A DNA stretch of 37,885 nucleotides from a virus, in the IMG/VR virus record IMGVR_UViG_3300047557_000239, positions 1 through 37,885 of that record; one strand, given 5' to 3'. Positions 114-37,885 of the stretch are shown here, one piece after another. The notes beneath the pieces are model-generated. The model made no database searches and was not told where the DNA came from. It saw nothing but the letters and a program-made list of their open reading frames with translations. The stretch's first letter is position 1; each line of letters starts with the position of its first letter. The translations under genes were made by a program, and so were the position numbers.

Positions 114-127
114 CTAACATTTGTTAG
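114..127. repeat. 14-bp palindrome copy 1
   Basis: CTAACATTTGTTAG. On the minus strand it runs straight into the GGAG ribosome site of the partial gene at the left edge. Confidence 0.75.
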
Positions 128-140
128 TTGTGGTTGGGGT

Positions 141-644
141 TCACAGCAGATCTTTACTTCTGCTCCACCGGGGCGGAGCGAACAGTGCGTCACCGCGCAC
201 GCCTTTCTTCCATCGACTGCCTAGCAGTCCGTACTTGTAACCGAGATGGTCGGCCCACTGCGCTAGTGTCATGCGCTTCCCTTTGTATTCAACGAACACA
301 TTGGTGCTCCGGTTGTTGGCCTGCTCTTTACGCGAAGTCCATCTAACATTTGTTGGTTCGTAATTGCCATCGTTGTCTATCCTTTCTAGCGTCATGCCCT
401 CGGGCTGCTCGCCCACATCAGCAAGAAACTCTGCGTAGTCATTGGCCCACCGATCACAGATAGTGATGCCTCTTGCTCCGTAGCGGTGGTAGTGCTGTGC
501 GTTTGGGTTCAAGCATCGCTGCTTGATAGACACCCAACACTTGTAGGTGTTGCTCGTCTGCCCATCACGCGCACCTACAGTGGCTCCGTGTTTCTTGCGT
601 TTGCGGTTAGCGTCGGCAACGCCTTGGTTGTATTTGCGAACCAT
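141..644 (-). CDS. HNH-like homing endonuclease (free-standing)
   Basis: This 167-aa protein belongs to a common phage group annotated as HNH endonuclease or AP2/HNH-like. Key stretches are YKCWVSIKQRCLNP (34-47), YGARGITICDRW (55-66), GMTLERIDNDGNYEPTNVRW (83-102) and a QANNRS tail (108-113). A C-terminal helix-turn-helix-like segment, MTLAQWADHLG (125-135), probably helps read DNA. I chose the ATG at 644 because TGGAGC precedes it at good spacing; the in-frame ATGs at 656 and 680 have no Shine-Dalgarno. Such enzymes cut specific DNA and spread their own gene. It sits between the MoxR ATPase and its probable VWA partner, which are normally adjacent, so it looks like an insertion. Nuclease activity is inferred from family resemblance. 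Confidence 0.75.
   Translation of the reverse strand: MVRKYNQGVADANRKRKKHGATVGARDGQTSNTYKCWVSIKQRCLNPNAQHYHRYGARGITICDRWANDYAEFLADVGEQPEGMTLERIDNDGNYEPTNVRWTSRKEQANNRSTNVFVEYKGKRMTLAQWADHLGYKYGLLGSRWKKGVRGDALFAPPRWSRSKDLL
343..356. repeat. 14-bp palindrome copy 2 (one mismatch)
   Basis: CTAACATTTGTTGG, inside the HNH-like gene. It differs from copy 1 at one base. Confidence 0.6.
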
Positions 645-713
645 GATCTGCTCCATGCGAACAGTGGGACTCACCACCATGCGGCGATGCTAACACAATT
701 AGTCCTGACATGT

Positions 714-1784
714 TTACAACAAATCCTGGTTATCTGCCACCCACTTGCTGAAGTCACGATTGCCGAACGCGATGGACTGCTTGCTCGTGTTACGCGCAAT
801 GTTGATTGCGAATGTGGCTTGCCACTCGGCCTGGAACCGCTTGACATACTCCATGAACGCAGAGAAGTTGGACTTCTCCGACGCTGCGATCAGGCCGTAG
901 ATCACCACCGCGCACGCACCGGGTTGGTCGGGCACCTTGGCATTCTTCGGGTCGGCGATGATCGACTCGCGTGTGGGCATCTGATCGGCGTAGGCAATGA
1001 ACGCTTGCATGTCCCGTGCACCTGCCTCACCCAAAGTACCGGCAAGCGCGGCGATGAGAGAGTCAGAACTAAAGTGAGCGCGTTGCTTGACGATGTTGGA
1101 TGCAAGCTCCAATGTGCGGGGGCAGATGTACCCATCCTGTTGAGCGCGGGGGTTGTAGATGTACGGGTTGTCCTTCTGTGTGCCGTCCAGATAGGAAGCA
1201 AGCACCTGAGGGAATCGATCCACATACGCACACACCTCGGGGGCGATGCCGTTGGGGATGGCCCAGGGCAACCATTGCTCGGCGGTGGGTTTCATCACGG
1301 TAACTTTTGTTAGGCGTGCGCTAGTGTGGGCTTTCATGTTGTCGCCAACACCATCGGATGAGAGATTGCCCGTCGTGAAGATGATCGAGTCGGGGTGGAC
1401 AGGGATGTCACCCAGGCGTGGGTTGGCTACCTCAAGCAAGGGGTGGAGCATGTTCATCACCGGGCCGGGGGCCTTGGTGAACTCGTCCATCATGATCGCC
1501 ACGGGCTCGCCCTTCTCCAACAGGAATCTAGAGTTAGGGTAGTAGCGGGTAGTCTTGGTGGCATGGTCAACGACCGGCATCGCAATGTCGCCCAAGTCCA
1601 TGTTGGGGCAGTCGATGTACGCCACGGGCAGGCCGGTGCGCTCGCCGATGCGCTTGAGCATGGATGACTTGCCGATGCCCGGCTCGCCACGCAGGTGGAA
1701 GCGGTTGCGCCGCACGTTCACAAGCAAGTCCTCGGCTTCCTTGAGGGAGACGGTCTTGCCAAAGTTGATTTCGGTTTTTGCCAT
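714..1784 (-). CDS. MoxR-type AAA+ ATPase
   Basis: This is a 356-aa AAA+ ATPase. The Walker A motif is GEPGIGKSS (33-41), Walker B is VAIMMDE (95-101), sensor 1 is IIFTTGN (134-140, Asn140), and the probable arginine finger is Arg157 in TSARLTK. The layout matches the MoxR branch, whose members hydrolyse ATP to remodel partner proteins and usually work with VWA-domain proteins. The C-terminal 150 residues are helical and less recognisable. CGGAG lies 8 bases before the ATG. A near-consensus promoter lies about 100 bp upstream (1881-1909) and a palindrome copy lies just before the ribosome site. The gene therefore heads its own leftward unit with the HNH gene and the partial VWA gene. Its role in infection is unknown. 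Confidence 0.85.
   Translation of the reverse strand: MAKTEINFGKTVSLKEAEDLLVNVRRNRFHLRGEPGIGKSSMLKRIGERTGLPVAYIDCPNMDLGDIAMPVVDHATKTTRYYPNSRFLLEKGEPVAIMMDEFTKAPGPVMNMLHPLLEVANPRLGDIPVHPDSIIFTTGNLSSDGVGDNMKAHTSARLTKVTVMKPTAEQWLPWAIPNGIAPEVCAYVDRFPQVLASYLDGTQKDNPYIYNPRAQQDGYICPRTLELASNIVKQRAHFSSDSLIAALAGTLGEAGARDMQAFIAYADQMPTRESIIADPKNAKVPDQPGACAVVIYGLIAASEKSNFSAFMEYVKRFQAEWQATFAINIARNTSKQSIAFGNRDFSKWVADNQDLL
1300..1313. repeat. 14-bp palindrome copy 3 (one mismatch)
   Basis: GTAACTTTTGTTAG, inside the AAA+ ATPase gene, over the codons next to the probable arginine finger. Confidence 0.55.
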
Positions 1785-1799
1785 GATGCTTTCTCCGTT

Positions 1800-1813
1800 C
1801 TAACTTCTGTTAG
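1800..1813. repeat. 14-bp palindrome copy 4
   Basis: CTAACTTCTGTTAG, between the promoter at 1881-1909 and the ribosome site of the ATPase gene. The neighbouring TTTGGG block is shared with copy 7. Confidence 0.7.
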
Positions 1814-1880
1814 GTTTGGGTTGGTTGTCTGCGTCCGTGGTTGGTAGACAGTGGGCCGGACGATCTCCCACTATCTTTAT

Positions 1881-1909
1881 ATTGTAACACATTGTTATAC
1901 CCATGTCAA
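1881..1909 (-). promoter_or_regulatory. Near-consensus sigma70 promoter for the ATPase unit
   Basis: On the minus strand TTGACA (1909-1904) is followed by exactly 17 bp and TACAAT (1886-1881). The expected start is near 1874, about 90 bases before the ATPase ATG. The spacer and -10 contain TAACAATGTGTTA, an inverted repeat resembling the 14-bp palindrome with one extra central base. Confidence 0.8.
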
Positions 1910-1951
1910 GCGTTTTCCGTGGTACGTAGCTTGATTTGCACACCCAATCTT

Positions 1952-3130
1952 TCAGTCCTTGTCTCGCGTGACCCACTTGAGGTACTTCGCAGTCGGCACC
2001 GTTCCTTCCTTGGCAGGGACAACTTCGATCACTTCCTCGCTGTGCCACTTGAAGATGATCTCGTCCATCGCACGGCTGATCTGCTTGGGGTCAAGGCTGA
2101 AGTTCTCCGGGCCCAGGAATCTGCGGTTGCCTTGTTGGGCAAAGTGGGCCAGATACACGAACGCTTGGTAGAAGGACTCGGTCTCGTCCAGGGGGTTGCC
2201 GTCCTTGTCGATGCCGTGCCCCCTAACTTTTGTTAGGAACGCCTGAGTAGCTGCAAGCCAAGCATCGTACGGTTCACGGCTGTCCACCTGCTCCCAGGTG
2301 TCGGTGGCTTCGTTGCGCACGTACACGGGGGTGGTGATCGCAGGCTTGTCGAGCGGGTTGCGCGTGAGGGTCGGGTGCTCTTGGTCGAACTGAAGGTTGA
2401 TGAGTAGGGGCAGCTTGCGGCTGTGCGTGTTGGTTGTGGGTACCACCGCAACGATTTCCTCCTCGGCGAATTCGATCCGGTCGTAGGTGTCCACAACCTC
2501 CTCGTCGTTCTTGTAGTCGTAGTAGTTGTCGGTGTAGGTCTGCTTGCGCACCCCGATCATGCCCTTCATGTAGCGGTAGAAGTCGCCGTAGCGTGCGCGT
2601 ACCTCGTTGGCCGTCTTGCGGTTGATCTTGGGCACGTAGAGCACGGGCAAGGACTCGGGCAGGGGTGTGAGGGTAAAGGTGCGGTTGTAGATAGGTTGGT
2701 CTGTGTTGTCGATGGTGTAAGTGAACCGCATACTGGCGTTGTTGGGCAGCACGAACTTCTGCCCGTCCCGTGCTTCGATCACCAGTCGGCCCATGTCCGT
2801 GCGCACGTTCTTGATGTAGCGCCCGAGAACCCCGGCGATGAAGTAGCTGTCGCACGAACTCCACCGATACCTGCGGATGGAAGGGTTTGGAACACCGATA
2901 GTGACGGTGTTGTCGGCGTGGAAGGTGATCAGCGGTTGGCTGTAGATGGACAGCACAACATCCCCGGTAGTGGGGTTGTGGTCGATGGTGAATTTGTTGG
3001 AGTCGGAGCGTCGGCCCAGGGGGAACCGCACGGGGTTGCTTCCCCTGATCGGGGTGGTCTTGTTGAAGCGGTCGAGTGCCTCGGCGTGCGTACTCAGGTA
3101 CGGGAGGTGGCTGTATGAGGTGTAGGACAT
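1952..3130 (-). CDS. Unknown 392-aa phage protein
   Basis: I do not recognise this 392-aa protein. It is rich in Tyr, Asp, Asn and Thr, with no obvious signal peptide, membrane segment or nucleotide-binding motif. The N-terminal half looks beta-rich, with a run around ITFHADNTVTIGVPNP. The middle is acidic (DEEVVDTYDRIEFAEEEI) and the C-terminus is more helical and charged. AAGGAA lies about 6 bases before the ATG. It follows the small-gene cassette on the same strand and precedes the promoter of the ATPase unit. A palindrome copy lies inside it (2223-2236) and another lies 39 bp upstream of its start. A role in early takeover or replication is inferred from position alone. Confidence 0.8.
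   Translation of the reverse strand: MSYTSYSHLPYLSTHAEALDRFNKTTPIRGSNPVRFPLGRRSDSNKFTIDHNPTTGDVVLSIYSQPLITFHADNTVTIGVPNPSIRRYRWSSCDSYFIAGVLGRYIKNVRTDMGRLVIEARDGQKFVLPNNASMRFTYTIDNTDQPIYNRTFTLTPLPESLPVLYVPKINRKTANEVRARYGDFYRYMKGMIGVRKQTYTDNYYDYKNDEEVVDTYDRIEFAEEEIVAVVPTTNTHSRKLPLLINLQFDQEHPTLTRNPLDKPAITTPVYVRNEATDTWEQVDSREPYDAWLAATQAFLTKVRGHGIDKDGNPLDETESFYQAFVYLAHFAQQGNRRFLGPENFSLDPKQISRAMDEIIFKWHSEEVIEVVPAKEGTVPTAKYLKWVTRDKD
2223..2236. repeat. 14-bp palindrome copy 5
   Basis: CTAACTTTTGTTAG, inside the 392-aa gene. It is identical to copy 8 at 4875. Confidence 0.65.
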
Positions 3131-3168
3131 TTTGATTCCTTGGTTGCCTTGTGGTTGCGTTGGTATTC

Positions 3169-3182
3169 CTAACTATTGTTAG
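3169..3182. repeat. 14-bp palindrome copy 6
   Basis: CTAACTATTGTTAG. It supplies the stop codon of the 66-aa gene and lies 39 bp before the next gene. Confidence 0.65.
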
Positions 3183-3369
3183 ACGTTAGCTTTGGGTGTG
3201 TTCTTTGTGGCTTGGTGATTTCCTTTTCCTGAATCCAGTGGTGGTAGTCGGTGTCGGCGCTCAAAAGGCGCAGGTGCATCTCGGCGAACACTTTGTCGTC
3301 GAATATGTTTTCGATCCATGTCTTTGCCTCGGTCTTTCTGCAACTCCACAGAATCCAAACCGTACTCAT
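3169..3369 (-). CDS. Small unknown protein, 66 aa
   Basis: This 66-aa protein starts MSTVWILWSCRKTEAKTWIE and is mostly helical and hydrophilic. Its ATG overlaps the stop of the 24-aa gene as ATGA, and GGAGG lies 4 bases upstream, so translation is probably coupled. A competing frame (3179-3385) uses an ATG upstream of that GGAGG but lacks a ribosome site of its own and reads as low-complexity basic sequence, so I rejected it. The stop codon lies in a palindrome copy. I do not recognise a family. It is the fourth member of the leftward small-gene cassette. Confidence 0.65.
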   Translation of the reverse strand: MSTVWILWSCRKTEAKTWIENIFDDKVFAEMHLRLLSADTDYHHWIQEKEITKPQRTHPKLTSNNS

Positions 3370-3440
3370 AGTGCCTCCAATTCAATCAGCACCCACAGCA
3401 GGGCCAGCTTAACGAACACGAATAAAAGATACCACTCCAT
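3366..3440 (-). CDS. 24-aa membrane micropeptide
   Basis: This frame encodes MEWYLLFVFVKLALLWVLIE followed by LEAL, a nearly complete single membrane helix. The ATG at 3440 shares its A with the TGA of the 48-aa gene, and GGAGG lies 8 bases upstream. The stop overlaps the ATG of the 66-aa gene as ATGA. Couplings at both ends plus a strong ribosome site argue for a real gene despite its size. A longer form starting at 3455 has no ribosome site. The function is unknown; membrane modulation or superinfection exclusion are guesses. Confidence 0.55.
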   Translation of the reverse strand: MEWYLLFVFVKLALLWVLIELEAL

Positions 3441-3586
3441 CACCAGGGCCTCCATACGAATAGGTCTAGGAACACAACCACCACGGCACAGCCGTAGACG
3501 GTTAGCCACACGAGCAGGTGCACGCCACCTGCCACTCTCTCCTGCACGCGCTTGGCGTACGCTTCCTCGATTCCGGTCTCGCTCAT
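3440..3586 (-). CDS. Small membrane protein, 48 aa
   Basis: The 48-aa product has a charged N-terminus (MSETGIEEAYAKRVQERVAG) and one strong membrane helix from about residue 22 to 44, ending in WRPW. The ATG overlaps the TGA of the zinc-ribbon gene as ATGA, and AGGAGG lies about 10 bases upstream. The charge pattern suggests a cytoplasmic N-terminus. I assign no family. It sits in a chain of overlapping small leftward genes driven by the promoter at 3883-3911. Confidence 0.65.
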   Translation of the reverse strand: MSETGIEEAYAKRVQERVAGGVHLLVWLTVYGCAVVVVFLDLFVWRPW

Positions 3587-3804
3587 TTGACTAGCCCTCC
3601 TTTGTTGTTGATGCCGATGAGGTCGGCGGGGTTGGTGAACAGCATGTAGTTGGATTTGTGCATGGGGGCCACAGTCCAACTCTTTCTTTCATCCCTTGCG
3701 GCGGAGTCACCGCAGGGCATACACATTTTGTACCCTAGATTAAACCTTTCGGCGGGGTAGTCGTCGCCGCACACACAGCAGGATCTCCAGTCGTGGTCAG
3801 TCAT
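3583..3804 (-). CDS. Small zinc-ribbon protein, 73 aa
   Basis: This 73-aa protein has two CxxC pairs, Cys9/Cys12 and Cys28/Cys31, in CCVCGDD and MCMPCGD. That is a typical small zinc ribbon which could bind nucleic acid or a protein partner. AAGGAG lies 8 bases before the ATG. It is the first gene after the strong leftward promoter, with a palindrome copy next to its ribosome site, and its stop overlaps the start of the 48-aa gene. Zinc binding is inferred from the cysteine spacing; the partner is unknown. Confidence 0.75.
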   Translation of the reverse strand: MTDHDWRSCCVCGDDYPAERFNLGYKMCMPCGDSAARDERKSWTVAPMHKSNYMLFTNPADLIGINNKGGLVK

Positions 3805-3818
3805 CGTCGTCGCTCCTT

Positions 3819-3832
3819 CTAACAGTTGTTAG
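3819..3832. repeat. 14-bp palindrome copy 7
   Basis: CTAACAGTTGTTAG, immediately before AAGGAG of the zinc-ribbon gene and about 45 bp downstream of the predicted start of its promoter. The adjoining TTTGGGG is also found at copy 4. Confidence 0.75.
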
Positions 3833-3882
3833 GTTTGGGGTCAGGGTGTGCCTCTGGCGGGCGCTTTTTCAGTCTATACTAT

Positions 3883-3911
3883 AGTATACCACAAAATACA
3901 CCCTATGTCAA
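3883..3911 (-). promoter_or_regulatory. Near-consensus sigma70 promoter for the small-gene cassette
   Basis: On the minus strand TTGACA (3911-3906), 17 bp and TATACT (3888-3883). The -10 lies in a perfect 14-bp palindrome, TATACTATAGTATA (3875-3888), that also covers the predicted start site and could be an operator. Confidence 0.85.
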
Positions 3912-4369
3912 GTTTTTGGCTGAGTGTCTGGCTCGTCGTCGGGGGTGGTGATTGGGTCGGTTTGCTCGTCTTCTTCGATGGGGGTTTGGAGGTAGAGCAG
4001 GATGGAGTAAGTGACAAACAAGGATGTGGTGAGGTCGTAGGTCTGTGTGTAGCGGTCTATGCCTTCGCGCAGGTTGGGGTGCTTGATCGGGTTGATTTCG
4101 CAGGAGACGGATACCTGTCGGTGGTTGGAGGTGAGGGACAGTTGGCGTGCGTGGGCAAGGATTGGCGTGCGTGGGCGGGTTGGCTTGTTGAAAGTGTGTG
4201 CACCTGTGGGGGTGAATACGTGGTGCGTGGCGAGGGCGTGCTTGATGGCAAACCGCATGAGGTTGGAGCGGCGGTAGCCGGTGGCGAGGGATCGGGCACG
4301 GAGTTGGGAGTCCACGGGTTCGGGAATGGTGGTGCCGAGGTTGTTGGAGATACGGTATTTGCTTTCCAT
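3908..4369 (-). CDS. Candidate ribbon-helix-helix regulator, 153 aa
   Basis: The first 50 residues fit a ribbon-helix-helix (CopG/MetJ-like) DNA-binding fold: a short strand around LGTTIPEPV (11-19), a helix DSQLRARSLATGY (20-32), a turn, and a helix RRSNLMRFAIKHAL (33-46). Such proteins bind palindromes as dimers. The rest is unrecognised and ends in an acidic Pro/Thr-rich tail. I chose the ATG at 4369, where the domain begins and which follows a possible extended -10 (4417-4425). No start in this frame has a good Shine-Dalgarno, so the start is uncertain. Its 3' end overlaps the promoter of the small-gene cassette. It could be the protein that reads the repeated palindrome, but that is inference. 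Confidence 0.5.
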   Translation of the reverse strand: MESKYRISNNLGTTIPEPVDSQLRARSLATGYRRSNLMRFAIKHALATHHVFTPTGAHTFNKPTRPRTPILAHARQLSLTSNHRQVSVSCEINPIKHPNLREGIDRYTQTYDLTTSLFVTYSILLYLQTPIEEDEQTDPITTPDDEPDTQPKT

Positions 4370-4416
4370 GACGGTGTTGTGGTGCGGAAAACGCACGAGT
4401 GGTTGATGGAAGGGCC

Positions 4417-4425
4417 ATTCTAGCA
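4417..4425 (-). promoter_or_regulatory. Possible extended -10 promoter for the regulator gene
   Basis: The minus strand reads TGCTAGAAT, a TGn plus TAGAAT extended -10, about 48 bases before the ATG of the candidate regulator. No good -35 lies at the expected distance, so this is weak. Confidence 0.3.
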
Positions 4426-4584
4426 TAGTTTTACGAAAACACAGAAATAACACGAGAAGGTCGGAACGTAACAGTCAGAAATCGCGCAAGTGGTTGATTT
4501 GCCTGAGCTTTTTGTTGGGGGTGTGTTGTGTTGTAGTTAAAGTTATAAAGTTATGATGAAAAAAGAGTATGTCCACGTAAGATG

Positions 4585-4597
4585 TTGACAATGTCAA
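4585..4597. repeat. TTGACA/TGTCAA inverted repeat
   Basis: TTGACAATGTCAA places a consensus -35 box on each strand, but neither strand has a matching -10 at 16-18 bp. Confidence 0.4.
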
Positions 4598-4874
4598 AGA
4601 GGGGGCTTGCACTTGCCGGAAGGCTCATTGTCAAGTCTCTACACAGATATACTTTGAAAACGGCATAACGTAAAACTTTTCACGCTTTTCCCTTGTAAAT
4701 CAAGCACTTAGCTTTGTTATCACTGTAATTTTGCCCCGTAACAGTCAATTTTTTATCACTTCGTGGTACGCTTGATCTGTTATGTTTTTATTAGGGTTTC
4801 CCCTCGTTTTGTAACAAAGAGCGTAACTTTCGGGGGTTAACCCTAACCTTTTGTAGTATAAAAAAGGGTTTACC

Positions 4875-4888
4875 CTAACTTTTGTTAG
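4875..4888. repeat. 14-bp palindrome copy 8
   Basis: CTAACTTTTGTTAG. A degenerate version, CTAACCTTTTGTAG, lies just upstream at 4843-4856. Both are preceded by ACC, which gives an iteron-like look. Confidence 0.7.
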
Positions 4889-4909
4889 TTTTGGCGTGTT
4901 CGGCGTGCG

Positions 4910-4939
4910 TGGGCTACAGCCTCTCAGAGAACTGGTGCA
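4910..4939 (+). repeat. 30-bp direct repeat, left copy
   Basis: TGGGCTACAGCC then CAGAGAACTGGTGCA after 3 variable bases. It matches 28 of 30 positions of the copy at 5020-5049, 110 bp away. The pair brackets the promoter-dyad-terminator unit. Confidence 0.8.
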
Positions 4940-4943
4940 GGTG

Positions 4944-4972
4944 TTGACACAAGCCAAAAAATACGGTAGACT
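4944..4972 (+). promoter_or_regulatory. Near-consensus sigma70 promoter of the mini-transcript
   Basis: TTGACA (4944-4949), 17 bp, TAGACT (4967-4972). It points rightward, although the genes on both sides point left. The predicted start is near 4979. Confidence 0.8.
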
Positions 4973-4987
4973 GAGATCAGTCTACCG
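4964..4987. promoter_or_regulatory. 24-bp dyad over -10 and start site (candidate operator)
   Basis: CGGTAGACTGA, a GA centre, then TCAGTCTACCG: 11-bp perfect arms. It covers the -10 and the predicted start, the usual place for a repressor operator. Confidence 0.65.
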
Positions 4988-5017
4988 GTTAACGAAGCCC
5001 GCACAGCGGGCTTTTTT
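4979..5017 (+). ncRNA. Candidate ultra-short transcript, about 39 nt
   Basis: A strong promoter is followed within about 16 bases of its predicted start by an intrinsic terminator, so the product would be about 39 nt, mostly the terminator hairpin. It contains no reading frame. It might be a replication primer, a small regulatory RNA or an attenuator. The ends are predicted only. Confidence 0.4.
4995..5017 (+). terminator. Intrinsic terminator of the mini-transcript
   Basis: AAGCCCGC, loop ACA, GCGGGCTT, within a run of six T. The 8-bp GC-rich stem followed by T6 is a textbook form. Confidence 0.85.
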
Positions 5018-5019
5018 CA

Positions 5020-5049
5020 TGGGCTACAGCCGCGCAGAGAACTGGTGCA
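5020..5049 (+). repeat. 30-bp direct repeat, right copy
   Basis: Partner of 4910-4939 with two mismatches. It begins two bases after the terminator T-run. Confidence 0.8.
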
Positions 5050-5069
5050 TTCGGGATGCTCGGCTCGTC

Positions 5070-5083
5070 CTAACAAATGTTAG
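5070..5083. repeat. 14-bp palindrome copy 9
   Basis: CTAACAAATGTTAG, the exact reverse complement of copy 1, between the mini-transcript and the terminators of the 164-aa gene. Confidence 0.75.
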
Positions 5084-5107
5084 TGGGCACTGACAAAGCG
5101 TGAACGC

Positions 5108-5137
5108 AAAAAAGCCCGCAGGGCGAACCATGCGGGC
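5108..5137 (-). terminator. Intrinsic terminator after the 164-aa gene
   Basis: On the minus strand GCCCGCA (5137-5131) pairs with TGCGGGC (5120-5114), followed by six T (5113-5108). Confidence 0.8.
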
Positions 5138-5144
5138 AAAAGAG

Positions 5145-5164
5145 AAGCCCCCTTGCGGGGGCTT
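5145..5164 (-). terminator. First hairpin after the 164-aa gene
   Basis: AAGCCCCC, loop of 4, GGGGGCTT: an 8-bp perfect stem just past the stop codon. On the minus strand it is followed by CTCTTTT, so it may assist the stronger terminator beyond it. Confidence 0.6.
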
Positions 5165-5173
5165 GAGTCAGGG

Positions 5174-5668
5174 TTAACCGAGCTTGTCGGGGTCGCCGCC
5201 CATGCGGGCGAAAACGTCCATCAGCACGGCCTTCTCGTCCGACCAGTCCGAATCCTTGCCGTCCTCCTCCATCTTGAAGATTCGGTTGATCAGGGTTTTC
5301 AGGTCAGCCAGATTCAGGGCCGCAGGATCGTTCGCACCGGCCACCCGATTCTGGGTGTATTGCTTACCGGCGGCGATCTTGACTCGTTGCCAGTAAACAT
5401 CGATGGAACCCTTGTCCAGTCCACGGGCCGTGAACGCTTCGACAAACTTCACCCGTTCAGCCTTGACCGGGGCGGCGAGCTTGCCCTTCAGGTCAAACCA
5501 CTTGGTTGTCACATAACCCTGGTTGTCGCGCAGGTCGAACGCTTGGTTCAGGCCGACAGCGTATGCGTTGATCAGATTGCCAGTCTTGGCAACGCCTTCG
5601 ACCAGTGCACCGCGCAGGGCATCCAGGGAAACGACGGGGGTCACGGGGGTAACAAAGGTAGCACTCAT
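5174..5668 (-). CDS. Unknown 164-aa early protein
   Basis: This soluble, mostly helical 164-aa protein starts MSATFVTPVTPVVSLDALRG. I chose the ATG at 5668 because GGAGAG precedes it by 8 bases; the in-frame ATG at 5686 lacks a ribosome site. Stretches such as KWFDLKGKLAAPVKAERVKF and DVYWQRVKIAAGKQYTQNR are basic and amphipathic, and the end is acidic (KMEEDGKDSDWSDEK), a mix seen in small nucleic-acid-binding proteins, though I recognise no family. It is a single-gene leftward unit closed by two tandem hairpins. Its upstream region carries a perfect palindrome copy and a G-quadruplex motif. Confidence 0.75.
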   Translation of the reverse strand: MSATFVTPVTPVVSLDALRGALVEGVAKTGNLINAYAVGLNQAFDLRDNQGYVTTKWFDLKGKLAAPVKAERVKFVEAFTARGLDKGSIDVYWQRVKIAAGKQYTQNRVAGANDPAALNLADLKTLINRIFKMEEDGKDSDWSDEKAVLMDVFARMGGDPDKLG

Positions 5669-5804
5669 GCTAGTCTCTCCAAACAACCCGGAATCTGCCG
5701 GGGGTCAGATCGATCAGGCCAGCCCCAATCGATGAATCCACATTAGCAAACCGCACCACGAAATGCAAGTCTACAGTGAACAATAATTCGTAGTACGATC
5801 CGAC

Positions 5805-5818
5805 CTAACAATTGTTAG
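5805..5818. repeat. 14-bp palindrome copy 10 (perfect)
   Basis: CTAACAATTGTTAG is perfectly self-complementary over all 14 bases. It lies 137 bp upstream of the 164-aa gene, next to the G-rich tract. Confidence 0.8.
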
Positions 5819-5823
5819 AAAAA

Positions 5824-5860
5824 CCCGAAAACCCCGACCCCCACCGGCCCCCCACCCCCC
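5824..5860 (-). other. Potential G-quadruplex
   Basis: The minus strand has five G tracts of 6, 6, 5, 4 and 3 bases with loops of 1, 5, 2 and 5, which meets the usual G3+/loop 1-7 rule with one spare tract. The plus strand is the matching C-rich i-motif type. Confidence 0.65.
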
Positions 5861-6050
5861 AAGGGGCAGATCGGAGTCCCAGACAACGCATAAACTGTGA
5901 TCTGCACACTCGATGCTATTTTTTAATTTTGGGTACCCCCCTGTGGTACGGTTTGATATAGGGAACACCCCCCGTCAGGAGTCCCAACCTCCTTTACAAC
6001 CCCACCTATATCTATTACAGTCGGCCCAATTTCGTTGGTGCTCATTCCCG

Positions 6051-6686
6051 ATGATTGAACTGAACCCGACGGGGGACCATCCGGTGCCCTTTGATCTGTC
6101 TGATGAGGTACCCAAAACCCACCGAGACAGCATTGCTGTTGCAGCCAACACTGCAAACCTCATCGAAGAGCTTGGCGGAAGCATCGATTACTCCGACCAA
6201 GACCTGCACACAGCCGCAAACCTCATCAGTGGGGTCGATAAGCCGGTTGTTCCTCGCCACATAACCAGCCCGTCAGAGGCCCGTGCGGTCTCCGAGTTGG
6301 TAAATCGCTTCGATTTCCAGGCATTTGCGGATGCTCAGCAGGCCCGCAACTACATCACCAACAAGCTGCTCCAGATTTCGGACTGCGGCGACCCCAAGTT
6401 GGAGCTAAAAGCCCTGGAACTGCTCGGCAAACACAGCGATATTGGCTTGTTTACTGAGCGCAGCGAGATTACCGTCCATCACAAGAACTCCGAAGACCTT
6501 GAAAACAGCATCAAGGAGCGCATCAAGCGCCTGCTCAATGCGGATGTGGTCGATGTGGAGCCTCTGATTAGTGAATTAGAGGACGAACCTGTACAAAAAA
6601 CCGAAGAAATTGAACAGGTCGAAGGTGACGTGCATACAAATGAGGGTAATGGCGAACATATAGAGGGTAAAGATGGGGGCAATTGA
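6051..6686 (+). CDS. terS: Terminase small subunit
   Basis: This 211-aa protein precedes and overlaps the large terminase gene by 14 bp, the usual place for the DNA-recognition subunit. The segment from about residue 97 (ARNYITNKLLQI...LELKALELLGKHSDIGLF) is typical of small terminases of this phage type. It is followed by a strand and helix (SEITVHH, then ENSIKERIKRLL) and an acidic tail. The small subunit binds the packaging site and presents DNA to the motor. I took the ATG at 6051; the frame stays open upstream to 5913, but that extension does not look phage-like. The ribosome site at 6051 is weak. Confidence 0.75.
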   Translation: MIELNPTGDHPVPFDLSDEVPKTHRDSIAVAANTANLIEELGGSIDYSDQDLHTAANLISGVDKPVVPRHITSPSEARAVSELVNRFDFQAFADAQQARNYITNKLLQISDCGDPKLELKALELLGKHSDIGLFTERSEITVHHKNSEDLENSIKERIKRLLNADVVDVEPLISELEDEPVQKTEEIEQVEGDVHTNEGNGEHIEGKDGGN

Positions 6687-8190
6687 CTCCGTTTCCCTCA
6701 AAGACCTGCCCAAAATCATCGACAAACTGTCGGATACAGACCTGCGCGTGCTTGAAGCGCAGTTGGTGCGCCTAGAGAAGCTCAAAAAGCAGGAGCTTTC
6801 TCAGGAAAAGTTCATCAAGTTTGTAGAGACGGTGTGGCCGACCTTCATTTCTGGGCGTCATCACAAGATCATGGCCAACGCTTTTGAGCGTGTGGCAAAA
6901 GGTGAGCTAAAACGACTCATCATCAACATGCCGCCCCGGCATACCAAGTCAGAATTTGCTTCTTATCTACTCCCCGCGTGGTTTCTGGGGAAGTACCCGC
7001 ACAAGAAAGTGATTCAGACCTCGCACACTGCCGAGTTGGCGGTGGGCTTCGGTCGAAAAGTGCGAAATTTGGTGGATTCCGACATCTACCACTCCATCTT
7101 TCCCAACCTGTCTCTCCAAGCCGACTCCAAAGCAGCCGGGCGGTGGAACACATCCAAGGGTGGTGACTACTTCGCTATCGGTGTGGGCGGTGCGGTGACC
7201 GGTAAGGGTGCCGATCTGCTCATCATTGACGACCCGCACTCTGAACAAGAGGCTGCACTTGCAGCCACCTCACCTGAGATATACGATAAGGTATACGAGT
7301 GGTATACCTCGGGCCCACGGCAGCGTCTCCAGCCGGGGGGAGCTATTGTCATCGTGATGACCCGCTGGGCTCAGCGCGACCTCACCGGGCAGGTGATCAA
7401 AGCCAGTGCGCAGCGAGGTGGTGAGGAGTGGGAGGTCATCGAGTTCCCGGCCATCATGCCCTCGGGCAACCCGCTGTGGCCGGAGTTTTGGTCACTGGAA
7501 GAACTCTCCGCACTCCAAGAAGAACTGCCCAACGCCAAGTGGCAGGCACAGTACCAGCAGAACCCGGTAGGCAACGAAGCTGCCATCGTCAAGCGCGACT
7601 GGTGGCAGTGGTGGGAGAAAGAGGATCCGCCTCCGTGCGAGTACATCCTCCAGACCTGGGACACGGCGTTCGAGAAGCATCAGCGTGCGGACTTCTCCGC
7701 AGGCACCACCTGGGGCGTGTTCAAGAACCCCGAGGACCACGACCAGCCCAACATTATCCTGCTCAACACCTATAAGAAGCGTGTGGAATGGGTGGACTTG
7801 AAGCGTGACGTACTGCGTGAATACAACGAGTGGGAGCCGGACGGTCTGTTGATCGAAAAGAAGGCTACCGGCGCTCCGCTGATCTACGAACTGCGGGCTA
7901 TGGGTATACCCGTGCAGGAATACACGCCATCAAAAGGCCAAGACAAGATCGCCCGTTTGAACTCCGTCAGCGACATAATCGCCTCGGGGAAGGTGTGGGT
8001 ACCACGTACGCGCTGGGCTGAGGAGTTGGTTGATGAAATCGCAGCTTTCCCAGCGGGCGATAACGACGACTTGGTTGACGCCACCACACTGGCCCTGATG
8101 CGATTCAGACAAGGGGGGTTCCTTCGTTTGCCGACCGATGAGCGCGAGGAGCCTAAGTTTTTCCGCCGCCGCAGTGGCGGGTTCTATTAA
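6673..8190 (+). CDS. terL: Terminase large subunit
   Basis: This 505-aa packaging motor has an N-terminal ATPase and a C-terminal nuclease. The Walker A-like motif is NMPPRHTKS (85-93), Walker B is LLIIDDP (182-188), and the coupling motif is VMTRW (228-232). Nuclease metal ligands are likely Asp330 in QTWDTAF, Asp340, Glu395 in LLIEKK and the aspartates of GDNDDLVDA (462-470). The enzyme pumps DNA into the prohead through the portal and cuts concatemers. GAGGG lies just upstream of the ATG. Its length is usual for the family, and all key residues appear to be present. Confidence 0.95.
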   Translation: MGAIDSVSLKDLPKIIDKLSDTDLRVLEAQLVRLEKLKKQELSQEKFIKFVETVWPTFISGRHHKIMANAFERVAKGELKRLIINMPPRHTKSEFASYLLPAWFLGKYPHKKVIQTSHTAELAVGFGRKVRNLVDSDIYHSIFPNLSLQADSKAAGRWNTSKGGDYFAIGVGGAVTGKGADLLIIDDPHSEQEAALAATSPEIYDKVYEWYTSGPRQRLQPGGAIVIVMTRWAQRDLTGQVIKASAQRGGEEWEVIEFPAIMPSGNPLWPEFWSLEELSALQEELPNAKWQAQYQQNPVGNEAAIVKRDWWQWWEKEDPPPCEYILQTWDTAFEKHQRADFSAGTTWGVFKNPEDHDQPNIILLNTYKKRVEWVDLKRDVLREYNEWEPDGLLIEKKATGAPLIYELRAMGIPVQEYTPSKGQDKIARLNSVSDIIASGKVWVPRTRWAEELVDEIAAFPAGDNDDLVDATTLALMRFRQGGFLRLPTDEREEPKFFRRRSGGFY

Positions 8191-15779: not shown

Positions 15780-16559
15780 ATGGCAGTCATCTATCGGATC
15801 ACCAACATGGCGAACGGGCACTACTACATCGGCAGTGCCGAATCCTTTGAGCGCCGCAAATGGCAGCACACCTACGACCTCAAACGTGGGGCACATAAGA
15901 ACCCGCGCCTTCAAGCCGCATGGAATAAGCACGGTGCGGATATGTTTGTGTTTGAGATCGTGGAGGAAGTGCTTGCTGACCGCACGGCCTTTGACATTGA
16001 GAACACCTACTTGATGCGGTGTGTGGGGCAACCAGACTGCTACAACATCAACACGGATGCCTATGTGCCGCGTCTGGGGGTACCGCACACTGAGGCGTCA
16101 AAAGCGCAAACCAGTCGAAACCGCAAAGGCAAGGCCGCAGGGGCAGACCACTACCGCTATGGACAAACGCTTTCAGCGGAAGTGCGCGAAAAGATCGGTG
16201 CAGCGCAGCGTGGTAAGCCCAAGGCTCCGGAGCGCAAGGTATCCGAAGAGGGGCGGGCCAAGATCCAGGCCAACATCGAGGCCGGACGTAGCCACAAGCA
16301 CTGGACAGGGCGCAAGCACACGGAGGAAGCCAAAGCCAAGATGTCCAAGGCGGTGTTTGTCATGCCTGACGGGCTGATGTTCCCAAGTCTGACCGCCGTG
16401 CTTGAGCGGTATCAAATTAAGATGCCGACGCTACGCCGCGCTTTGGCTTCCGGCAAACCCATTACCAAGGGAAAACTGGCCGGATACTCATTCAAGTATG
16501 GCGGGGTAAATCCTCAGTTCACGTCCACGGACAAACTTCTTGCGTTCCCCAAGAAGTGA
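15780..16559 (+). CDS. GIY-YIG homing endonuclease
   Basis: This 259-aa protein opens with a GIY-YIG nuclease domain: IYRITNMANGHYYIGSA (4-20), then Arg/Lys and RLQAAWNKHGADMFVFEIVE, with a Glu in DIENTYL as the probable metal ligand. Residues about 100-190 hold NUMOD3-type DNA-binding repeats (SAEVREKIGAAQRGK, SEEGRAKIQ, HTEEAKAKMSKA). A NUMOD1-like C-terminal helix-turn-helix follows (PSLTAVLERYQIKMPTLRRA). Such enzymes make site-specific breaks that lead to copying of their own gene. It sits after the capsid terminator with its own promoter, so it reads as a self-contained insertion. AAGG precedes the ATG. Confidence 0.9.
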   Translation: MAVIYRITNMANGHYYIGSAESFERRKWQHTYDLKRGAHKNPRLQAAWNKHGADMFVFEIVEEVLADRTAFDIENTYLMRCVGQPDCYNINTDAYVPRLGVPHTEASKAQTSRNRKGKAAGADHYRYGQTLSAEVREKIGAAQRGKPKAPERKVSEEGRAKIQANIEAGRSHKHWTGRKHTEEAKAKMSKAVFVMPDGLMFPSLTAVLERYQIKMPTLRRALASGKPITKGKLAGYSFKYGGVNPQFTSTDKLLAFPKK

Positions 16560-35600: not shown

Positions 35601-37885
35601 CGGTGGGTCTTGGCTTGCCCGTGCAAACTGCGATAACTATCGCCACGACCAGTGGCATGCAAGGTATAAGCACGGCGGTTGATTACATCAATGAAGGTTA
35701 CGCCCGAGGAGTTCCTACTGACCAACTAATGAACGAAGCCCGGACGGTGGCTCTGGGCTCTGCGGCGGCATCTGCGGGTATTCAGACTTTGTTCCCCGGC
35801 GCAGCCGTTGCGTTGGAACGGTCTATAGCCGGTGCGATGCCCGGTACTGCACTCACCACAAACCTAGTCAATCAGACAGGACAGTTCCTCTCTACCACAG
35901 CAAAAAATAACATTCGGACTGCGCTAGTACAGACTGGTGGTGTTGCGTCTAATGTTGCCGACGAAGTAGCGTCTGATGTCATCAGTAACCTAGTTGCTGG
36001 GAAACCTTGGAATGAAGGTATTGGACGCACTGCCGGTGAAACTCTTGTCGCTACTGGTGCCATACAAGGGCTAATCTCCGCTGCCAATAGACTGCCCGGC
36101 GTTGGTGATTCGATTGCGGATGCAGTTTCTTCGCTTCTCAGACAGTCCAACTACCAACCCGTTGAGTTCCTTGGCGCTTCCCGTCCGGGCGGTGACACTA
36201 CCATCACGGGCACTGCGTACGACCCCACTCTCCTGCTTGGTGGCCCTGGAGGTGCAGCGGCACAAACCACCGCTGCGCAGGCTGCGGATCTTCTGACTGG
36301 TGCACTGACTCGGCTTGGCTACGACCCCAATGTGCAGGGCGCGGATCTTCAGTCCATGCTCGACCGTGCTTTTGGTCAAGCAACAACCGGGACGGAAACT
36401 ACTACCGGCACTCGGGCACAGACTACCACTGCGCCGGACATGGCGAAGTTCTTTGAAGGGACTTCTCCTGAGATGGTGGCTTTCTTTGATGAAGGTAACC
36501 GTCCTGTCACTTATCGTGAGTTGGCAGAAGAGTTGGGCCTGCCCGACACCATCTTTGGTGGTGCTACACAGACTGGCGCAGTAACTCAAACCGGTACAGG
36601 CACTCAGACCGGCACAGGTACTCAAACCCAGACTCAAACCGGTACGCAAACGCGGGTTGATACAGGACTCGGCGGCACCACTATCGGCGGTGATGTAATC
36701 ACTACTGGCACGGGCACTAGAGGGGGTACGGATACCCAAACCCAGACTCAAACCGGCACTCAGACCCAAACCGGTACTCAGACGGCGACGGCAACAGATA
36801 CTTCTGATCTCAATAATCTTTTGTTGCGCGGTCTCTTTGGTAATTTGGTTGACGCCGAAGGTAATCTGATCACCACTGATGATCTGATCAATATTCTTTC
36901 GACCCCCGCGCCGACCACAACGCCTGCGCCGACTACCACCCCGGTCGTTACCACCACTCCTGCACCGACTACTACTCCGGCTGTAACGACTACTCCCAAG
37001 CCGACCACAACACCGCTAGTAACAATCATCGGTCAGGATGGCACAGTACTGTCTGATAAAGACTTGGGTATTGCGGTAACCCCTGCGCCGACCACCACTC
37101 CGGTTGTAACTACTACCCCGGCGCCGACTACAACGCCGCTAGTCACGATTATTGGACAAGACGGTACGGTGCTGTCTGATAAGGACTTGCTGCCCGCCAC
37201 ACCCGCACCTACAACCACACCCGCACCTACAACCACACCCAAGCTGACCACCACTCCGGCTGTGACCACTACTCCGGCTGTGACCACTACTCCGGCTGTG
37301 ACCACCACTCCGGGCGTAACCACCACTCCGGCTGTGACCACCACTCCGGCTGTGACCACCACTCCGGCTGTGACCACCACTCCGGCTGTGACCACTACTC
37401 CGGCTGTGACCACTACTCCGGCTGTGACCACCACTCCGGCTGTGACCACCACTCCGGCTGTGACCACCACTCCGGCTGTGACCACTACTCCGGCTGTGAC
37501 CACCACTCCGGCTGTGACCACCACTCCGGCTGTGACCACTACTCCGGCTGTGACCACCACTCCGGGCGTAACCACCACTCCGGCTGTGACCACCACTCCG
37601 GCTGTGACCACCACTCCGGCTGTGACCACCACTCCGGCTGTGACCACCACTCCGGCTGTGACCACCACTCCGGCTGTGACCACCACTCCGGCTGTGACTA
37701 CGACCCCTGGAGTGACTACGACCCCTGGAGTGACTACGACCCCTGGAGTGACTACTACCCCTGGAGTGACTACGACCCCTGGAGTGACTACGACCCCTGG
37801 AGTGACTACTACCCCTGGAGTGACTACGACCCCTGGAGTGACTACGACCCCTGGAGTGACTACGACCCCTGGAGTGACTACGACC
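32672..37885 (+). CDS. Giant repeat-rich virion protein (partial; right end open)
   Basis: An uninterrupted frame of 1,738 codons from ATG at 32672 to the window edge. Residues 117-166 are a DUF4214-like domain (LYQQVLGRAPDQGGFDFWL). Three VTTAP units follow. Residues 253-291 hold an NPDLAAVGI...HYVNYGAFEGR domain. Residues 424-528 are Gly/Ala-rich and hydrophobic (GGLGGGLGAGIGSNLGQTA). A second Ala/Gly-rich zone spans about 865-1135. Gln/Thr/Gly repeats precede residue 1400, then Pro/Thr repeats and 18-bp tandem repeats reach the edge. Three D(D/E)LINI motifs and two identical VTIIGQDGTVLSDKDL peptides recur. The hydrophobic zones resemble internal virion (ejection) proteins; the C-terminal repeats look like a stalk. 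The function is inferred only. Confidence 0.6.
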   Translation, partial: MARLLTEQEFEDSFNQDDLINIISGGTTPAPTAAPFNFRDYMYAGGADDTLATQRGLEYAAQQGWTPGQTVSNWNQALGTNFTLDDYYRVTGTQPPAATLAPTAAPVVTAAPSFNSMVLTNLYQQVLGRAPDQGGFDFWLNAMNTMGYTPEMVASEFMKSPEYQSRFAVTAAPAATTAPVVTTAPVVTTAPVVTTAPAITAAPETTIAPVVTVAPTSQGVDNWGQDLRPFFSDPYTGESGFREENFSAVPTGFNWQEYVRLNPDLAAVGIDTEVEAKRHYVNYGAFEGRQGAPILSLQDAINFAKTNVTGANAFADMGDAGFQPVSQQIGKYSIVPTGDVYSGVQGYNISGATGKTEAALPFAPTGTPFEQTLRTDANGKIIGQSLNLKTGGDSGYIVDIDANGNITRIDNYDESESWRKPAALFATFIGSTIGLPQIGAALGATGQYLPSIVGGAVLGGANAAIAGASGSDILKSAAIGGLGGGLGAGIGSNLGQTASGAVGGGTLGNIASGAVQAGVQALPQAIATGDFSNVFQQAALGGVSSAAGTALSSTLSESGFTPKQIQGAFTVVTQLASGNVDPRTLVTALGDLSGHPDADIASRAARLGIALSGADLSKPATLSAVVSELTGLGKAIDNKGIKRLPGTVQGPQVRVTGEDLQPVGPINQDELINIIRGTELPSVTGGTTTGTTGTGATGATGQFAVGTQLPTGATIQTDNQSVALNLVKDLVPENMRTPGFLNWAASYVWAGDQDKLRDAVSSWMAGNAAAPAPSLGTGRTTSGIALDPGFKVDPTGQSWETGYTASGMPTALSQVVGVSGKKITPQEAYQYDLENNPLVATWAFANKRLPTFEEWQTAIANKGFGNDVLTEMTKGVIGLGLTLPGGAADLITGTPGEISATAASIVNTLNQNLSSATKETRDQMGTAISEAAKNGQLAAFVETVRQYGLNPDQAALLVAGLGPQVGVGGLSMMAARAVGLGLPVQTAITIATTSGMQGISTAVDYINEGYARGVPTDQLMNEARTVALGSAAASAGIQTLFPGAAVALERSIAGAMPGTALTTNLVNQTGQFLSTTAKNNIRTALVQTGGVASNVADEVASDVISNLVAGKPWNEGIGRTAGETLVATGAIQGLISAANRLPGVGDSIADAVSSLLRQSNYQPVEFLGASRPGGDTTITGTAYDPTLLLGGPGGAAAQTTAAQAADLLTGALTRLGYDPNVQGADLQSMLDRAFGQATTGTETTTGTRAQTTTAPDMAKFFEGTSPEMVAFFDEGNRPVTYRELAEELGLPDTIFGGATQTGAVTQTGTGTQTGTGTQTQTQTGTQTRVDTGLGGTTIGGDVITTGTGTRGGTDTQTQTQTGTQTQTGTQTATATDTSDLNNLLLRGLFGNLVDAEGNLITTDDLINILSTPAPTTTPAPTTTPVVTTTPAPTTTPAVTTTPKPTTTPLVTIIGQDGTVLSDKDLGIAVTPAPTTTPVVTTTPAPTTTPLVTIIGQDGTVLSDKDLLPATPAPTTTPAPTTTPKLTTTPAVTTTPAVTTTPAVTTTPGVTTTPAVTTTPAVTTTPAVTTTPAVTTTPAVTTTPAVTTTPAVTTTPAVTTTPAVTTTPAVTTTPAVTTTPAVTTTPAVTTTPGVTTTPAVTTTPAVTTTPAVTTTPAVTTTPAVTTTPAVTTTPAVTTTPGVTTTPGVTTTPGVTTTPGVTTTPGVTTTPGVTTTPGVTTTPGVTTTPGVTTTPGVTTT
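33020..33171 (+). other. DUF4214-like domain
   Basis: Encodes LTNLYQQVLGRAPDQGGFDF followed by WLNAMNTMGYTP and FMKSPEYQSRF. The L-Y-x2-V-L-GR-x-PD-x2-G-x2-W pattern is typical of the domain, often found in extracellular repeat proteins. Confidence 0.65.
37019..37066 (+). repeat. VTIIGQDGTVLSDKDL module, copy 1
   Basis: Encodes VTIIGQDGTVLSDKDL at residues 1450-1465; the second copy begins 41 residues later. Confidence 0.7.
37142..37189 (+). repeat. VTIIGQDGTVLSDKDL module, copy 2
   Basis: Same 16 residues as copy 1, but many codons differ at third positions. The peptide looks conserved while the DNA has drifted. Confidence 0.7.
37262..37693 (+). repeat. 18-bp tandem array, 24 units (VTTTPA)
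   Basis: Twenty-four units of GTGACCAC(C/T)ACTCCGGCT, each encoding VTTTPA. Units with CCGGGC followed by GTAACC occur at 37311 and 37563, 252 bp or 14 units apart, which suggests a block duplication. No spacers, so not a CRISPR array. Confidence 0.9.
37694..37885 (+). repeat. 18-bp tandem array with other codons, at least 10.7 units (VTTTPG)
   Basis: Units of GTGACTACGACCCCTGGA encode VTTTPG. They differ from the first array by Ala to Gly and by four of the five shared codons. Units at 37748 and 37802 have ACT for ACG. The array continues past the window end. Confidence 0.9.

Follow-up and report, generated by a model that had tools for sequence, protein, structure and literature searches.

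The window, by which we mean the whole stretch of DNA analysed, comprises 37,885 bases; it is the IMG/VR record of an uncultured phage and belongs to a freshwater lineage. Rightward from about 5.9 kb it carries genes for the large terminase, portal, glycosyltransferase, capsid and virion structural proteins; a GIY-YIG homing-type endonuclease gene (15780-16559, plus strand) directly follows the capsid gene. Genes read leftward include an ATPase gene and, in the leftward cluster, a gene for an HNH endonuclease (141-680, minus strand). A strong leftward promoter (TTGACA-17-TATACT at 3883-3911, minus strand) precedes the genes of the leftward cluster; it lies some 1 kb to the left of the first repeat described below, and relatives have similar promoters. 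Long repetitive reading frames with VVVTAG repeats occupy positions 36778-37686 (minus strand) near the right end. In a 63-kb relative (G001), genes for a DNA polymerase, a helicase, a primase/helicase and an exonuclease are found further left.

By large terminase, the nearest named phages (47-58% identity) are DSL-LC04, the pelagiphages HTVC027P and HTVC023P, the marine phage 023Pt_psg01 and cyanophages such as MinM2. A search for relatives with the large terminase matched at least 600 stretches; the lineage is large and mostly uncultured.

The locus considered here contains the following features:

4875..4888, palindromic: CTAAC-N4-GTTAG palindrome left of R1
4910..4939, plus strand: R1, the first repeat copy, with a 26-nt core at 4914-4939 and the homologous cut position between 4933 and 4934 (GAACT^GG)
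4944..4972, plus strand: sigma-70-type promoter, TTGACA at 4944-4949, a 17-bp spacer and TAGACT at 4967-4972, 10 of 12 positions matching the consensus
4964..4987, palindromic: 24-bp dyad over the -10 and start, CGGTAGACTGA-GA-TCAGTCTACCG, with 11-bp arms and a 2-nt centre
4979..5017, plus strand: predicted transcript of 39 nt, its start placed by promoter spacing
4994-5017, plus strand: terminator with a hairpin at 4994-5014 and a T-run at 5012-5017, ending 2 bases before R2
5020..5049, plus strand: R2, the second repeat copy, with the core at 5024-5049 and the homologous cut position between 5043 and 5044
5070..5083, palindromic: CTAAC-N4-GTTAG palindrome right of R2
5174..5686, minus strand: slot gene g5; its family of small all-helical proteins is represented at this position in 37 of 39 units
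5913..6686 (likely start 6051), plus strand: putative small terminase gene, named by position only
6673..8190, plus strand: large terminase gene (phrog_38, 2e-108)

The two CTAAC-N4-GTTAG palindromes flank the repeat pair in many relatives as well. In the window, TAAC-N4-GTTA palindromes (mostly CTAAC-N4-GTTAG) number nine, all within 115-5817 and mostly between leftward genes, with none in the other 32 kb. The g5-family proteins in the slot diverge fast, with identity down to about 20% between relatives; fold and family searches with g5 gave no recognisable DNA-binding fold and no database match. One relative (L074) apparently has two g5 units in tandem, with three repeat copies. For the small terminase candidate, searches returned no family match and no solved structure, and the predicted model was poor.

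R1 and R2 are direct repeats, identical at 28 of 30 positions and spaced 110 bp start to start. With up to three mismatches allowed, the repeat pattern occurs only twice in the window and in none of 100 shuffles; the near-identical 30-bp direct repeats reported by the initial annotation are therefore beyond chance. A 15-base probe from the repeat matched 63 stretches of IMG/VR, some with two copies 50-149 bp apart; about half of the 63 were chance matches within genes and the remainder had one common layout. The set of relatives was widened by adding loci found with the large terminase to those found with the probe. In these relatives the element is located in the same place, in most cases 1.6-2.5 kb upstream of the gene for the large terminase.

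A profile built from 75 copies in 39 diverged genomes delimits a 26-nt core, CTAcCnCCGCnCAGAGAACTGGTnnA, with information at background level just beyond its borders; invariance of GAACTGG and of the leading CT is built in, as the search required them, while the other positions and the sharp borders were free. Of 15 whole contigs, 11 have exactly two matches to the pattern, one (G014) has three, and three contigs that are more distant lack it; the reversed pattern, used as a control, had no matches in the same 15 contigs. Some relatives (L081, L083 and L089) have a single recognisable copy only. The spacers between conserved copies range from 43 to 149 bp and are wholly different in sequence, with the promoter present or absent. 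R1/R2 is a conserved paired element confined to one locus. DNA searches did not find the element in named phages, it is also absent near the terminase gene of four close records, and no description of it turned up in the papers that a literature search covered.

Two roles for the repeat were considered and rejected. As a hairpin, the aligned copies have no consistent pairing by eye, and the two copies of the window fold worse than the shuffle mean. As sigma-54 or phage-polymerase promoters, the repeats do not match the consensus by eye and the copies are present at one locus only.

Between the copies lies the promoter-dyad-terminator unit. Promoter-like matches by themselves are at chance level here (3 found versus 2.5 expected); in 3000 dinucleotide shuffles of positions 4401-5200, a promoter with a dyad (arms of at least 9 bp) on its -10 arose a single time. 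The dyad is the longest of its type in the window. The initial annotation had described a near-consensus rightward promoter with a 24-bp dyad on its -10 and start, and both descriptions agree with our analysis; its terminator and RNA of about 39 nt hold as predictions. Its statement on leftward surroundings was also correct, with leftward neighbours on both sides and the next rightward gene, the putative small terminase, past the terminator. A folded 40-mer of the predicted RNA gave -14.8 kcal/mol (z -3.0). A feature overlooked earlier is a good leftward intrinsic terminator (fold z -5.7), formed by the minus-strand dyad and the TATTTTTTGG that comes after it.

Scanning of the collected loci identified a TTGACA-type promoter with dyad arms of at least 9 bp on the -10 in the window and in 10 relatives. 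All of these promoter-dyads are directed rightward and located beside the repeat pair or its diverged forms: within the pair (the window, L045 and L086), after the last copy (L063 and L130) or before a copy (L074 and L089). On the minus strand most of them present a hairpin with a T-run, i.e. a leftward terminator. Changes in the dyad arms are compensated across relatives (TATGCT/AGCATA, TACACT/AGTGTA, TAGACT/AGTCTA), a pattern that would fit a hairpin or a palindromic binding site. The layout in close relatives, which had been named earlier as a check, held for the repeats and failed for the promoter part: the closest relative, L040, has no promoter-dyad, though both repeats are present and R2 is directly preceded by a terminator-like hairpin with a T-run. 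We regard the promoter-dyad as a recurring, optional accessory module, with a role that we infer rather than observe.

Ends of contigs point to a function of the repeats themselves. The end test used 71 distinct family contigs with a left end no more than 3.5 kb upstream of the large terminase gene, from loci gathered regardless of contig ends. Exactly at GAACT^GG of a repeat we found 6 of the 71 left ends versus 0.04 expected (two positions), P about 6e-12; with a tolerance of one base either side the excess had P = 4e-9. The six contigs are L073 (46 kb), L130, L132 (43 kb), L177, L188 and L153 (19 adapter bases set aside). Pattern searches yielded two more contigs starting at GAACT^GG, L422 and L366, both outside the 71-contig test. 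For six of the eight (L130, L132, L153, L177, L366 and L422) ..GAACT precedes the start in near relatives whose sequence continues across the site; L130 was checked by its relative L248, 100% identical over 700 bases, and L073 and L188 have no relative with which to check the preceding bases.

An Illumina adapter is joined at the cut base in L153 and L366 (in L366 with one extra A) and nowhere else in about 430 loci. In L153 the adapter is joined to GGTGCATTC, and the start aligns at the R2 base of the window itself. L130, L132 and L153 begin at the last copy; in L177 the start is at the earlier one of two, which corresponds to the R1-type copy of its relative L162. The sole right end near the cut, that of L292, is 8 nt left of it, in a right-end sample that is small and demands longer contigs; a box-pattern scan for further right ends returned almost only unrelated contigs. 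In contigs of whole-genome size the pair is situated at varied distances from the ends, and right ends are mostly elsewhere. Ends were read from contigs, not from reads. Recurrent DNA ends at one exact position, by which a genome terminus is recognised, are seen in the six left ends and in the joined adapter.

Many family contigs also end in a C-rich stretch before the small terminase gene (5820-5990 in the window, the same place in relatives). These ends fall at scattered bases and on both sides; the stretch was therefore rejected as a precise genome end and read as a weak spot of sequencing or assembly.

Divergence of the element was compared with that of neighbouring genes. In 37 units, the correlation (rho) was 0.57 for the putative small terminase, 0.49 for g5 and 0.29 for the large terminase. 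With the ATPase gene on the other side as a control (16 units), the partial correlation was 0.46 (p 0.01) for the small subunit given the ATPase, and 0.17 (p 0.18) for the ATPase given the small subunit. Such correlations support, but do not prove, a link of the element to the small terminase; gene linkage could account for part of them.

Taken as the basis for interpretation, these data make it probable that R1 and R2 are sites where the terminase of this lineage cuts replicated DNA to start packaging, i.e. that they mark the genome terminus. In the initial annotation, the unit was a possible replication primer, decoy or small RNA, or else a cassette that had entered through recombination at the two repeats; an antisense RNA belongs to the same reading. 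The promoter, start and terminator are indeed well formed, yet this reading is scarcely credible. The RNA downstream of the promoter-dyad differs in sequence between relatives, and because it is not conserved a specific small RNA or primer is unsupported; Rfam gave no match for the RNA of the unit, and L040 does without the promoter. As for the cassette, the pair is conserved around unrelated spacers and contigs end inside the repeats. Very unlikely, too, is that the exact contig starts are assembly artefacts of two repeat copies and that the repeats do something else. L190 and L292 do break near or inside the repeated stretch, as a repeat-caused break could, but the starts lie mid-repeat at one base common to different subclades, and the adapter joined at that base indicates real DNA ends. 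Breaks of an assembly graph leave the repeat on the contig and produce no mid-repeat start; moreover, R1 and R2 are shorter than the usual final k-mers.

The exact ends also bear on two regulatory or replicative roles. The repeats could be initiator-binding iterons of a replication origin by an AT-rich stretch, with the promoter activating the origin by transcription or supplying a primer, as is known for the origin of lambda. Several regional features speak for this reading, which we nevertheless consider quite unlikely: in 15 of 19 genomes the 200-bp segment of the locus that is poorest in GC is found 300-480 bp to the left of R1, the GC skew has a change of sign over this region in 16 of 19, many relatives have the AT-rich stretch bordered by conserved boxes AAATCAAnnACTTAcG, and phage polymerase, helicase and primase are encoded (as seen in G001). 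Contig starts at one exact base in the repeat and a joined adapter are not predicted by iterons, however, and the GC skew does not prove an origin, since diverging transcription confounds it and the window itself shows no such change. An origin may well adjoin the cut sites rather than be built of them. The AT-rich gene-free stretch at 4430-4900 of the window is a candidate, with boxes AAATCAAnnACTTA at 4697-4711 (forward) and about 4487-4500 (reverse) and a TTGCACTTG element, a layout common to many relatives. Single sequences hinted at a conserved large hairpin to the left of R1; it was discarded, as RNAalifold on 30 aligned sequences gave no structure. Finally, an operator pair for a phage regulator (e.g. 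the g5 product), controlling early leftward transcription or the embedded promoter, would agree with the regular presence of a g5-family gene in the slot and with element divergence tracking that of g5 (partial 0.35 given the small terminase). We hold it to be highly improbable: the promoter may stand between the copies, ahead of them or behind them, L040 lacks it altogether, no DNA-binding fold could be recognised in g5, and the exact contig ends would stay unexplained.

If R1 and R2 are terminase cut sites, they would represent two tandem copies of a packaging cut sequence. The cut, at GAACT^GG within the 26-nt core, could be made in either copy, in most cases the last. The DNA right of the cut, with the slot gene, the small and large terminase genes and the structural genes, would become the left end of the packaged genome. 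The nuclease would be the terminase, its small subunit would recognise the element, and packaging would proceed rightward. Because the embedded transcript is predicted to stop just short of R2, it may keep transcription off the cut site; alternatively, it may present a stopping polymerase or open DNA at R2, comparable with T7 RNA polymerase pausing at the concatemer junction.

Regarding the type of packaging, in our judgement pac is most likely, then cos, then a terminal repeat. That left ends recur and few right ends match them favours a pac-type start. The right end of L292, 8 nt left of the cut, would fit the trimmed 3′ overhang of a cos site. A short terminal repeat, with R1 and R2 as its borders, would account for the start of L177 at R1.

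Known systems share some of these features. In the Bacillus phages SPP1 and SF6, which package by the headful mode, pac has direct repeats, one set of which (boxB) lies across the first cut, and promoters overlap the site, which is upstream of the small terminase gene (PMC4737164, PMC6316719). The present locus likewise has direct repeats in the presumed packaging region and a promoter at the site, upstream of the (putative) small terminase gene. Unlike the SPP1/SF6 pac, it has an unrelated sequence, two copies of one 26-nt element with a cut base in each, a promoter-terminator between the copies and a distance of about 1 kb to the small terminase gene, with another gene between; the headful mode is for the present phage a candidate only. 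The P22 pac is a short asymmetric recognition sequence of 22 bp (PMC9611059), similar in size to our element; it is single and inside the small terminase gene, whereas the element here is paired and intergenic. The fixed cut base resembles cos of lambda, HK97 and PaP3, and the L292 end recalls the 3′ overhang of HK97 cos (PMC5557969). In contrast to these cos sites, a fixed right end is seen in one contig only, and two tandem copies are unusual.

T7 RNA polymerase pauses at the concatemer junction and contacts maturation proteins (PMC3276506). As at the T7/T3 junction, transcription would run here toward the site and stop close by, and L177 would suit an R1-R2 terminal repeat. The promoter, however, is of sigma-70 type, and most placed starts are at the last copy, which such a terminal repeat does not predict; a scan of proteins, which was not exhaustive, detected no phage RNA polymerase. 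A short terminated transcript near a presumed replication region is also a feature of lambda OOP RNA and the lambda origin promoters; unlike OOP RNA, the RNA here varies between relatives and has no evident target.

The element would thus be a packaging start that shares parts with the SPP1 pac and with the T7 junction, its own characteristics being the sequence, the distance to the small terminase gene and the promoter-terminator between the copies. A further proposal, which we put forward as an unlikely one, is that host RNA polymerase reads a promoter and terminator set between two tandem terminase cut sites, halts at the border of the second of them and so determines when or where the first packaging cut is made. 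This would be a T7-like transcription-coupled start of packaging with no polymerase of the phage's own, in a freshwater lineage that is abundant and uncultured.

To our knowledge, packaging sites are rarely known outside cultured phages. Here, such a site is proposed from sequence for a large and mostly uncultured phage lineage. If the assignment is true, the element would be a marker fixing the genome start of many fragments, physical ends of phage genomes could be read from contig starts and stray adapters, and the role of host transcription in starting packaging would become testable.
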